DNA of 51,281 bases from the NCBI GenBank assembly GCA_900318835.1, contig ONLW01000020.1, forward strand, positions 1-51,281, given 5' to 3'. Position 1 is the first letter of the stretch; every line of letters begins with the position of its first letter. Under the pieces are notes generated by a model that did not search any database, had not been told where the DNA came from, and was given only the letters and a program-made list of their open reading frames with translations. This document shows positions 21,263 through 23,611 of this stretch, piece by piece. This DNA comes from an uncultured Bacteroidales bacterium (lineage in GTDB: Bacteria > Bacteroidota > Bacteroidia > Bacteroidales > P3). Position numbers and translations under genes: made by a program.

Positions 21263-21300
21263 AAAAAAAGCCCCGCGCCGAATGGTGCGGGGCTTTTTTT
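21263..21300. terminator. Bidirectional terminator
   Basis: AAAAAAAGCCCCGC(G)CC / GG(T)GCGGGGCTTTTTTT stem with GAAT loop. A-run on the left and T-run on the right allow it to serve both the C1 peptidase (plus) and the next gene (minus). Confidence 0.93.
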
Positions 21301-21956
21301 TATTCGTCGCGCTTGGCTTTGAACCAGTCGACGAACTTGGGGAGGTCGTCAAGAGGTTGGAAGCCGCTCTTGAAGGGCTCTGCGGGGACGGGGACAGTCT
21401 CCATGTAGCCGATGAGGGTAGCACAGTCGAACTCGCCCATCAGAGACTCGAGGGTAACATAAACACCCACTTGGAAGTCCTCATCCTGTCGCTGGCCGTC
21501 CTCAACCGCGATGCGGAGGCCCAGCATCTCAGGCTCCTCCTCGCACTCCAGTTGCTGGAAATACATCTTGCGGGTGTCGAAGAGCATCTTGTCGAAGCGC
21601 ACCTTGAGCTCGGTGCCCATGGGCTGCTTGAAGGCGATGAACTCCCACCAGTCGAGGTCGGGGGCGTTGTCGACTAGTTCCACCACATAGCGGAAGAGGT
21701 CGGTGTCGCCCTCGGCGGTGAAGGTGAGGGTGCGGCCGTTGGCGGTGGCATCGCCTATCTCGTAGGTGAGGCCGTCGCAGTATTTCGTCAGCTGGTACTG
21801 CATGGCGTTCTCCAGTTGCTCACGTTCTTTATCCTCCAAGTCGCCCATTGCGACGAGTTCCTCATTGTGGTCTACAAACCACTGCCAAAATTTAGTGGTG
21901 TCGGCTCGGCCGACAACCATATTTTTTTTCTCTACTTTTTCCATATTCTTCAACAA
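21300..21956 (-). CDS. Acidic cytosolic protein of unknown function
   Basis: 218 residues, or 214 if ATG 21944 is used. No signal peptide or membrane segment. It contains FWQWFVDHNEELVAM, LTYEIGDATANGRTLTFTAEG, WWEFIAFKQPMGTELKVRFD and a long acidic tail (VDWFKAKRDE). The last codons run into the bidirectional terminator. It resembles conserved Bacteroidales hypothetical proteins, but I cannot name the family or a function. It lies directly next to the repeat-flanked GxxExxY unit and is transcribed in the same direction. Confidence 0.7.
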   Translation of the reverse strand: MLKNMEKVEKKNMVVGRADTTKFWQWFVDHNEELVAMGDLEDKEREQLENAMQYQLTKYCDGLTYEIGDATANGRTLTFTAEGDTDLFRYVVELVDNAPDLDWWEFIAFKQPMGTELKVRFDKMLFDTRKMYFQQLECEEEPEMLGLRIAVEDGQRQDEDFQVGVYVTLESLMGEFDCATLIGYMETVPVPAEPFKSGFQPLDDLPKFVDWFKAKRDE

Positions 21957-21977: not shown

Positions 21978-22036
21978 ACGACAACACAGACAACACAGAC
22001 AACGCAGACAACTGAGAAAACGCAACATGCGTTTTC
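21978..22036 (+). repeat. Left inverted repeat of the GxxExxY unit
   Basis: ACGACAACACAGACAAC and two further AGACAAC units, then hairpin GAAAACGCA-ACA-TGCGTTTTC (22016-22036, perfect 9 bp stem) ending one base before the stop codon of the gene. Confidence 0.88.
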
Positions 22037-22037
22037 C

Positions 22038-22502
22038 TTAACGGACGCTGTGAAATTCTATGTTGTCATCATATCTGTTTCTTAGTTTTTTACCCTCAGA
22101 ATTGACAATCACATCCAATTCTTTATCATAATAATAACGTTCAATTTCTGCATATAACGGAGCAAAATTCACCAGTATGCCCACCATCGGTTTTACCAAA
22201 TGCATGTAATTATATAACTGTGCACGATGTTCTTTGTTGAGAGCAGACACAGACTTTAATTCCGCAATCACAGTTTCTTTACAAAAGAAATCAAGATAAG
22301 ATATCGATTCCATCTGTTTGCCACGATAAACCGGATGGATGGCCGTCTCCCGTTCAAAAGGTATCTTTTGCAAAGACAGTTCCATAGCGAACCCCTCCTG
22401 ATATATTTTTTCATTCAGGCCAGGACCGAGTTCTTTCTTCACATTGTAAATGGCGCCCATCACGTCATAACACTCATCTTTATATTTCGCAATATTCACC
22501 AT
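22038..22502 (-). CDS. GxxExxY protein (PDDEXK_3 family)
   Basis: 154 residues. The family name motif is present as G28-L-N-E31-K-I-Y34 within KKELGPGLNEKIYQEGF. A nuclease-like core follows: SISYLDFFCKETVIAELKSV holds the Asp and the Glu-x-Lys of a PD-(D/E)XK fold, then HRAQLYNYMHLV with the QLxxY motif, and VGILVNFA. Family members are small, found widely in Bacteroidota and often next to repeats; no activity has been firmly assigned as far as I know. AT-richer than its neighbours. Both ends of the gene abut hairpins, leaving about 16 bases between the start codon and the right hairpin. Confidence 0.88.
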   Translation of the reverse strand: MVNIAKYKDECYDVMGAIYNVKKELGPGLNEKIYQEGFAMELSLQKIPFERETAIHPVYRGKQMESISYLDFFCKETVIAELKSVSALNKEHRAQLYNYMHLVKPMVGILVNFAPLYAEIERYYYDKELDVIVNSEGKKLRNRYDDNIEFHSVR

Positions 22503-22518
22503 TTAATCCCCTTTTTTC

Positions 22519-22570
22519 ACGAAACGCCATGTTGGCGTTTCGTCGTTGTCTGCGTTGTCTTTGTTGTCGT
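22519..22570 (-). repeat. Right inverted repeat of the GxxExxY unit
   Basis: On the minus strand it reads ACGACAACAAAGACAAC, GCAGACAACG, then hairpin ACGAAACGCCA-ACA-TGGCGTTTCGT (22519-22543, perfect 11 bp stem). It differs from the left hairpin by paired changes while keeping the ACA loop. Confidence 0.88.
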
Positions 22571-22590
22571 TTTATAAAGAACCGTTGTCG

Positions 22591-23556
22591 TTAGATTATT
22601 ATCGCTTCGGGGTCGAGGGCGACACCGAATTTCTGTTTCACATCTTGTTGTATGGCGGCGGCGAGGGCTCGGACTTCGTCGCCGGAGCAGCCGTCAGCAT
22701 TGTATAGGACAAGTGCGTTCTTGGGCCATACCCCTGTCCTACCCTGCGTGCGACCTTTCCAGCCGACCTTATCAATCAGCCAACCGGCACTCAGTTTGTA
22801 TCCGCCGTCTGTGCCGTGTGCCTCGGGCATATCGGGATAATCTGCCCTGATTCTATGGTATGTATCCTCGTCGACCACGGGGTTTTTGAAGAAGCTGCCG
22901 GCAGAGCCATGTTCCTCGGGTCGTGGAAGCTTGCTCCAGCGCACTTCCATGATGGCCTCGCGGAGCTGCTGGGCGGTGTTGTGAGGCAGCCCTTCGAGGG
23001 CTTTGTAGCTGAGGTTGGGGACAAATTCCTTGCTCAAGCGGTAGGTGACCCGGAGAATAAGGTAGCGTCCTGGATCGTGCTTAAAGATGGAGTCGCGGTA
23101 GGCAAACCGGCAGTCGGCATTACTGAAGTCACAATGGCGACGTTCCAGAATGTCGTATGCCTCGACGCGCTCGATAAAATCTTTCGCCTCCGCACCGTAA
23201 GCACCCACGTTCTGTACCGCAGAAGCACCTACTGTGCCGGGGATGGACGAGAGATTCTCGAGGCCGTAAAGTCCGTGGTCGAGAGTCCACTGCACCAAAT
23301 CATCCATTATCATTCCACCCCAGGCGGTGACAAGGTGAGAGGTGAAAGATGAAAGGTGAAAGGTATTAGACAGCGTGATGACGGTGCCCTCGTAATCCTT
23401 GGTAAACACCATGTTGCTGCCCGCACCAATCACTAGCAACTCGCCTTCCAGCGGCGGCACCTCATCGCCCGGCTCCATGACTATCAGCCTTCGAGCTTTC
23501 ACATCAATGCCGAAGGTATTGTAGCTTTTCAGTGATATGTTTTCAAAAACTTTCAA
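22591..23556 (-). CDS. murB: UDP-N-acetylenolpyruvoylglucosamine reductase MurB
   Basis: NADPH- and FAD-dependent enzyme that makes UDP-MurNAc for peptidoglycan. 321 residues, type I. Visible: SYNTFGIDV near the start, VIGAGSNMVFTKD, ENLSSIPGTVGASAVQNVGAYG for FAD binding, YRDSIFK, GSAGSFFKNP with the catalytic serine, and KLSAGWLIDKVGWKG. Start is TTG 23556: an in-frame stop lies two codons upstream and no ATG precedes the NTFG motif. The start sits in a TTTTCAATT repeat, and residues 85-97 (NTFHLSSFTSHLV) are encoded by a TTTCACC array in place of the strands usually found there. Downstream of the MATE gene in the same direction. Confidence 0.94.
   Translation of the reverse strand: MKVFENISLKSYNTFGIDVKARRLIVMEPGDEVPPLEGELLVIGAGSNMVFTKDYEGTVITLSNTFHLSSFTSHLVTAWGGMIMDDLVQWTLDHGLYGLENLSSIPGTVGASAVQNVGAYGAEAKDFIERVEAYDILERRHCDFSNADCRFAYRDSIFKHDPGRYLILRVTYRLSKEFVPNLSYKALEGLPHNTAQQLREAIMEVRWSKLPRPEEHGSAGSFFKNPVVDEDTYHRIRADYPDMPEAHGTDGGYKLSAGWLIDKVGWKGRTQGRTGVWPKNALVLYNADGCSGDEVRALAAAIQQDVKQKFGVALDPEAIII
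23332..23364 (-). repeat. TTTCACC array inside murB
   Basis: Plus strand shows AAGGTGAGAGGTGAAAGATG and AAAGGTGAAAGG units; on the coding strand they encode TFHLSSFTSHL between the FAD-binding loop and the SIPG motif. Confidence 0.85.
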
Positions 23557-23611
23557 TTCTCAATGGGTACGCAGACGTCTCGCCTGCTTTATTTTTCAAT
23601 TTTCAATTTCC
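23551..23611 (-). repeat. TTTTCAATT units spanning the murB start and MATE stop
   Basis: Units at 23551-23563 and 23590-23611. The first contains the TTG start codon of murB, the second contains the TGA stop codon of the MATE gene, so the whole spacer between the two genes is repeat-derived. Confidence 0.75.

Follow-up and report, generated by a model that had tools for sequence, protein, structure and literature searches.

The question raised by this locus is why a short gene of the GxxExxY family lies between two inverted copies of a repeat, and whether gene and repeats together form a unit that can move. In the window (the whole stretch of DNA that was analysed, 51,281 nt), the segment 21978-22570 holds a GxxExxY gene enclosed by two inverted arrays, each made of 9-nt words GACAACNNN and an ACA-loop hairpin. 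On either side of the gene the hairpin is proximal to it and the run of words is distal. The unit can be written as AAC-word-word-word-hairpin, GxxExxY gene, and the same again in inverted order. The features of the locus are the following.

21300..21956, minus strand: orf21300, flank of the candidate insertion site, adjoining murB in all 30 of the closest loci
21978..22015, plus strand: word array on the 3' side of the gene, ACGACAAC followed by AGACAAC units with a period of 9 (repeat search)
22016..22036, plus strand: hairpin GAAAACGCA-ACA-TGCGTTTTC, 1 nt from the stop codon (repeat search, covariation)
22038..22502, minus strand: GxxExxY gene, 154 amino acids, predicted PD-(D/E)XK nuclease fold (profile matches, alignment, model)
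22519..22543, minus strand: hairpin ACGAAACGCCA-ACA-TGGCGTTTCGT (direction of reading: from the words towards the gene), 16 nt upstream of the start codon (repeat search, covariation)
22544..22570, minus strand: inverted word array on the 5' side of the gene, GTTGTC units at 22545, 22554 and 22563
22584..22592, minus strand: outlying extra unit GTTGTCGTT, extending to the murB stop codon (repeat search)
22591..23556, minus strand: murB, flank of the candidate insertion site (profile match, synteny)

The murB gene, the GxxExxY unit and orf21300 are all on the same strand. A search of orf21300 against Pfam and NCBIfam profiles gave no match. The two sides of the element pair in inverted orientation at 93% over 27 nt and at 77% over 53 nt. 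The inverted flank-to-flank alignment scores 60; shuffled flanks have a 99th percentile of 24 and mismatched flank pairs one of 52. The initial annotation, which had described a GxxExxY gene between inverted repeats with ACA-loop hairpins, is correct in this respect and the pairing is above chance; the spacings it gave from the hairpins to the stop and start codons are exact.

Two other stretches of the window resemble word arrays. Positions 23330-23366, inside the coding sequence of murB, contain a short array-like stretch ggtgagaggtgaaagatgaaaggtgaaaggta similar to a word array read in frame, and positions 23550-23611, which cover the beginning of murB and the adjoining upstream DNA, contain ctttcaattctcaatggg...ttttcaattttcaatttcc, which looks like a further array. 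Words AATTTTCAATTCTC, similar to those at the murB start, adjoin GACAAC arrays at two other loci (L335, L337).

The window protein is assigned to GxxExxY by TIGR04256 (7e-33, 113.4 bits against a cut-off of 35) and to PF13366 (3e-32, 112 bits against a cut-off of 22). The PD-(D/E)XK active-site residues E31, D71, E81 and K83, as well as Q95 and Y99, are invariant in all 32 aligned proteins, and the pattern E, D, E-x-K, Q-x3-Y is kept in all of them. The nearest solved folds to the structure model (pLDDT 90.5) are Cas4 SSO0001 and lambda exonuclease. The protein is a predicted Cas4/RecB-like PD-(D/E)XK nuclease with its active-site residues intact. Matches to Cas4 profiles are weak and were obtained for two of three GxxExxY proteins. 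Cas4 carries a four-cysteine iron-sulphur cluster. No conserved cysteine was found in the alignment of 32 GxxExxY proteins, and therefore a cluster of the Cas4 type is not expected; on this ground GxxExxY was not classed as Cas4. Compared with Cas4, RecB-type and lambda-exonuclease enzymes, GxxExxY stands apart in having no conserved cysteine in this alignment. At an E-value threshold of 0.001 the enclosed gene matches PF13366 alone in Pfam, and no HUH Y1 transposase lies between the repeats.

The differences between the left and right stems had been read earlier as compensating changes. This reading is correct, and it holds also for a set of 49 hairpins from the word family concerned, here called family A, whose words contain GACAAC. 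The hairpins were picked by the presence of ACATG within 45 nt of GACAAC, and about five obvious chance matches were kept. Among the hairpin cells 86.7% are paired (62.3% in shuffles) and 99 are changed on both sides (26.3 in shuffles). The covariation score is 0.524, compared with 0.132 +/- 0.017 for shuffled stems and at most 0.158 with the partners slid. The number of stem pairs changed on both sides is unremarkable in these 49 hairpins (8 against 7.0). The stems covary in family A, the only family scored.

The comparison of orthologous intervals was based on the 30 closest loci of the genus, in seven of which the gene lies between murB and orf21300. Empty sites, for which the initial annotation had proposed to search, are present in the remaining 23. 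Most of these have a short gap; one (L058) retains a gene-less family-A remnant, and approximately eight, judged by eye, hold gene-less arrays of other word families. Two assemblies have two murB contigs each (G064: C63, C69; G079: C83, C131) and are probably mixtures of strains or species, and therefore counts from them are less sure. For the murB tree three loci were added deliberately because they are occupied, giving ten occupied loci out of 33. The presence of the gene requires eight changes on this tree, at least six of them forced by supported branches, and shuffled labels require 8.8 on average. Thus, presence at the murB site is patchy and no more clustered than shuffled labels.

A sister pair bears on the discreteness of the unit. 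The empty locus L047 and the occupied locus L048 are 94.5% identical in murB DNA and 94.7% in orf21300 DNA. The earlier description of a self-contained, possibly mobile unit gains support from this comparison, as the whole element is present in one and absent from the other of two sister genomes whose flanks are both approximately 94.6% identical. The next closest relative, L050, carries the gene (with only 64% DNA identity), and simple parsimony therefore favours loss in L047. What the pair demonstrates is the discreteness of the unit and not its acquisition. Inspection of the junction by eye revealed no target-site duplication, the flanks having diverged by 5%.

In a tree of 83 GxxExxY proteins of the genus, the ten from the murB site group together as a single clade (support 97), and therefore the family-A subfamily is tied to this site. 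Within the clade the histories of genes and flanks disagree. The flanks of L110 are nearest to those of the gene-less locus L061 (81.7% in murB and 90.6% in orf21300, four loci compared). However, its GxxExxY DNA is 83.8% identical to that of L033, with only 64.5% in murB DNA; the corresponding protein identities are 90% for GxxExxY and 62% for MurB. The pair L048 and L050 has the opposite pattern, 84% for MurB and 61% for GxxExxY at the protein level. When L033 and L110 are aligned, identity increases at the array (from 62% to 82%), is lower again between the hairpin and the start codon, reaches 75-90% within the gene and drops beyond it. As the history of one copy conflicts with both its flanks, horizontal movement of the element into the murB site seems likely. 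By the same comparison, patchy presence together with conflicting histories would fit a homing-type invasion of this site.

Arrays without the gene also occur elsewhere. In the window's genome, gene-less GACAAC arrays were found at three other positions, with a half copy at one more. Across 120 genomes of the genus, 199 matches to the strict pattern GACAACNNAGACAAC were counted, and at most three per genome to its reversed control. Among 44 inspected array loci, two (L317, L330) hold the gene at the murB site and 42 are gene-less. Of the latter, all of family A, 22 are inverted pairs (median span 92.5 nt) and 20 were scored as halves. By eye they are mostly intergenic; a mechanical check places 18 of the 42 within some open frame of at least 80 codons. 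In 98 family-A array starts, the position -2 before the first word is A in 93 cases and the position -1 is C in 84. At two loci (L325, L321) arrays of another family are nested, by eye, inside family-A arrays. Word repeats similar to CTACCATCTCC, perhaps of another family, adjoin GACAAC arrays on the right flank of L122 and the left flanks of L304 and L309. In one genome (G015) five contigs (C4, C9, C15, C18 and C23) have GACAAC arrays within about 250 nt of their ends, which suggests near-identical recent copies that broke the assembly.

The number of such arrays is associated with the presence of the gene. In the 77 of 120 genomes for which the status of the family-A gene is known, the median number of GACAAC matches beyond the gene's own site is 8 with the gene (n=11) and 0 without it (n=66; p = 8e-8); when only the 23 inspected relatives without the gene are taken for comparison, p = 8e-4. 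In 59 genomes the association of gene and arrays gives p = 2e-6, 3e-6 and 4e-5 for families A, B and C, where two family-B carriers are counted from a partial gene (G022, L114) and from a more distant one (G002, L003). A permutation test removing genome and word effects gives p = 1e-4 (34 of the 59 genomes). All these genomes are related, and the p values overstate their independence. In four sister pairs, read off without statistics, the difference is as expected in three and there is none in the fourth. Family-B words, too, are numerous in genomes with the family-A gene (log2 count 3.17 in the median, 1.0 without the gene), and therefore the association is partly one between array-rich genomes. 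Three genomes (G002, G015, G064) have no gene at the murB site, yet contain 11 array matches each, as many as the carriers; recent loss of the gene would explain this. Overall, the candidate gene-less copies are enriched where the matching gene is present, in three word families.

Within the window's genus, PF13366 has 0 to 7 matches per genome and at least one in 42 of 59 genomes; in its phylum, Bacteroidota, 101 of 198 sampled genomes have a match, and GxxExxY genes also occur in many other phyla. We aligned the reverse complement of the upstream flank of each gene to its downstream flank, with mismatched flank pairs as the reference. The genus set had 94 matches, 90 of them distinct and 80 full-length; only these 80 were used. 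Their median score is 40.5 for true pairs and 18 for mismatched ones; of the 80 true pairs, 57 score above the 95th percentile of the mismatched distribution and 25 above the 99th. The multi-phyla set, from named genomes, was drawn as the best 80 of at least 569 candidates with one peptide motif; 79 were used, one flank being too short, and 44 and 30 of these 79 exceed the same percentiles. The loci below the 95th-percentile threshold number 23 of 80 and 35 of 79, respectively. The suggestion that repeats should be sought at other GxxExxY genes is borne out, as most of the genes tested have inverted words. Loci that pass include members of Chloroflexota, Planctomycetota, Verrucomicrobiota, Acidobacteria and Proteobacteria. 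Of two loci from archaeal metagenome-assembled genomes (MAGs), L259 passes (score 43) and L212 does not (score 17).

The words vary between loci, yet match across the gene, in the manner of ACCACGGAG...CACGGAG, gene, CTCCGTG...CTCCGTGGT. The autocorrelation is highest at lag 9 for the multi-phyla set and the genus set; this is not so for 30 loci of the phylum, whose flanks were read by eye only. Word similarity between loci climbs with protein identity, from a median of 17 below 50% through 29 at 60-70% and 38 at 70-80% to 53 above 80%; these are loci without detected common neighbours, as judged by a crude neighbour test that missed some. The words, as far as these alignments reach, track the GxxExxY protein subfamily. 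At five loci (L203, L221, L223, L224, L251) the unit on each side appears by eye to be a whole palindromic array rather than a half. The initial reading is supported; gene-less miniature copies, subfamily-specific words and occurrence in many phyla are added to it here.

Several other sites are informative. Upstream of scpB in eight genomes of another genus, the gene is open in four, absent in three, and decayed between recognisable ends in one. The six genes of family C share one common downstream gene. The nine genes of family B have five different downstream neighbours, which suggests movement of this family between sites. In Sphingomonas parapaucimobilis the gene lies between fabD and fabG, with words visible on the left side only. 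In three Opitutaceae MAGs it lies between gatA and gatB, as assigned from translations of the neighbours. At two of the latter loci the prevailing word changes alike on both sides (CACGGAG in L209, CACAGAG in L242); the third (L187) does not pass the flank test. One locus (G027, L066, about 759-2064) contains a tandem duplication of the whole GxxExxY element, with a unit of 597 nt and copies 97-100% identical.

These observations point to a little-noticed kind of small mobile DNA in many bacterial phyla. We suggest that the locus belongs to a gene-plus-repeat system similar to REPIN/REPtron, run by an unrelated PD-(D/E)XK nuclease; with mobility judged by comparison of genomes, we put the probability of this reading at about two in three. 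An action of the GxxExxY product on the words or hairpins is indirectly supported by the co-occurrence of matching genes and arrays and by the covariation of the hairpins. The Cas4/RecB-like nuclease would recognise the words and hairpins of its own element, probably when these are single-stranded and folded in the course of replication, and might cut at or near the outer boundary between AAC and the words. Host replication and recombination could then copy the gene-bearing form into a homologous empty site, in a homing-like manner, and a gene-less form could be copied into a new site using the nuclease in trans. A hydrolytic nuclease is unable by itself to join DNA, and therefore the insertion step would require host functions. 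A wider proposal, to which we give slightly better than even chances, is that a separate and ancient class of small mobile DNA, found in many bacterial phyla and probably in archaea, has the GxxExxY nucleases as its dedicated enzymes. Elements of this class would have arrays of 9-nt words and covarying hairpins, co-diversification of subfamilies and words, homing into preferred intergenic sites, and gene-less copies mobilised in trans. Such a class, with its independent origin from a Cas4-like nuclease, would parallel REP/RAYT and account for the word repeats of the CACGGAG, CACAGAG and CGCAAAG types found in intergenic DNA of many phyla.

The reading that comes nearest is a free-standing homing nuclease, whose gene and arrays spread only among alleles of one site, the gene-less arrays being unrelated or passive. 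The confinement of families A and C to one site each agrees with it, and the conflict between element and flank histories at the murB site resembles transfer from allele to allele. However, the gene-less arrays of family A have the words, covarying hairpins and terminus of the unit, in three families the distribution of arrays over genomes is linked to that of the corresponding gene, family B is found at five different sites, and the adjoining end of murB lacks the raised identity expected from co-conversion. We consider this reading unlikely. Clearly less probable is a regulatory, non-mobile role, in which words and hairpins would be RNA structures (terminators or processing sites) that control the nuclease or are processed by it in a polycistronic mRNA. 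Among the loci at which both neighbours were called, these are co-directional in 42 of 66 in the multi-phyla set, 54 of 70 in the genus and 24 of 27 in the phylum, the multi-phyla loci again coming from the best 80 of at least 569 candidates. Between such neighbours the gene has nearly always the same direction (same against opposite, 36/6, 49/5 and 24/0 in the same order), in agreement with this role, and compensated stems would also suit RNA. On the other hand, gene-less copies are spread over numerous unrelated loci and are in part nested within each other, a close sister genome lacks the whole unit, and no Rfam family matched among the 15 loci searched.

The arrays could also be ordinary repeats of the REP/BIME type, moved by an HUH (RAYT, Y1) transposase encoded elsewhere, with the GxxExxY genes as passengers. 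Indeed, Y1 transposase genes (PF01797) are present in 40 of the 59 genus genomes, including that of the window (two matches). However, three genomes that are 80-88% complete (G008, G019, G042) have no Y1 match and contain 29, 18 and 10 matches, respectively, to the family-A and family-B patterns combined, and therefore Y1 transposases are not the general cause. Moreover, with genome effects removed, the arrays still track the GxxExxY subfamily, and GxxExxY genes of many phyla are enclosed in this layout too. This is in our view the least probable explanation of all, and the nuclease-run gene-plus-repeat system is preferred.

A description of such a system was not found in the open-access literature searched, where two papers name GxxExxY once each and in passing, PF13366 occurs in one, and the name PDDEXK_3 and six typical word strings are absent. 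The closest parallel is REPIN/REPtron, with a chromosomal nuclease gene beside inverted palindromic repeats, scattered gene-less inverted doublets, matching pairs of enzyme and repeat, and clusters formed by insertion of repeats into repeats (PMC3116915, PMC8266576, PMC3733652). Here the GxxExxY gene likewise lies beside inverted repeats, with scattered gene-less inverted doublets and nested arrays as in those accounts, and the matching of enzyme and repeat takes the form of genomic co-occurrence of matching pairs. The enzymes differ, being a predicted PD-(D/E)XK nuclease here and an HUH tyrosine enzyme there, and so do the repeats, an array of 9-nt words with a hairpin (terminal AAC in family A) as opposed to a GTAG-tagged REP hairpin. 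RAYT phylogeny is reported to be largely congruent with that of the species (PMC3116915), whereas here one copy of the gene conflicts with its flanks. Another PD-(D/E)XK nuclease gene in a fixed intergenic region is rpnC of E. coli (Rpn/YhgA-like), for which two independent introductions between panC and panD have been inferred, according to the part of the report available, which does not mention flanking word arrays or gene-less copies (PMC5350276); that family is PF04754, and the present one PF13366. MITEs and their parent insertion sequences are similar in having short inverted-repeat derivatives without the gene, mobilised in trans (as would be the case here). Unlike them, the present unit has no match to a transposase family and no recognised target duplication, and its repeat consists of tandem words.

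If the preferred reading is true, it would provide a function for GxxExxY, a very common nuclease family, and an explanation for many intergenic repeats, and the strategy of a nuclease with its own scattered hairpins would have arisen more than once. The matching pairs of enzyme and repeat, such as GACAAC words and family A, would then be material for studying how a protein of about 150 residues might recognise specific DNA sequences. REP-like palindromes are also found in the window's genome: GGCCCCTACGGGGCC and GATGCCGTAGGCATC lie directly beside a gene-less GACAAC array, on the left flank of L127.
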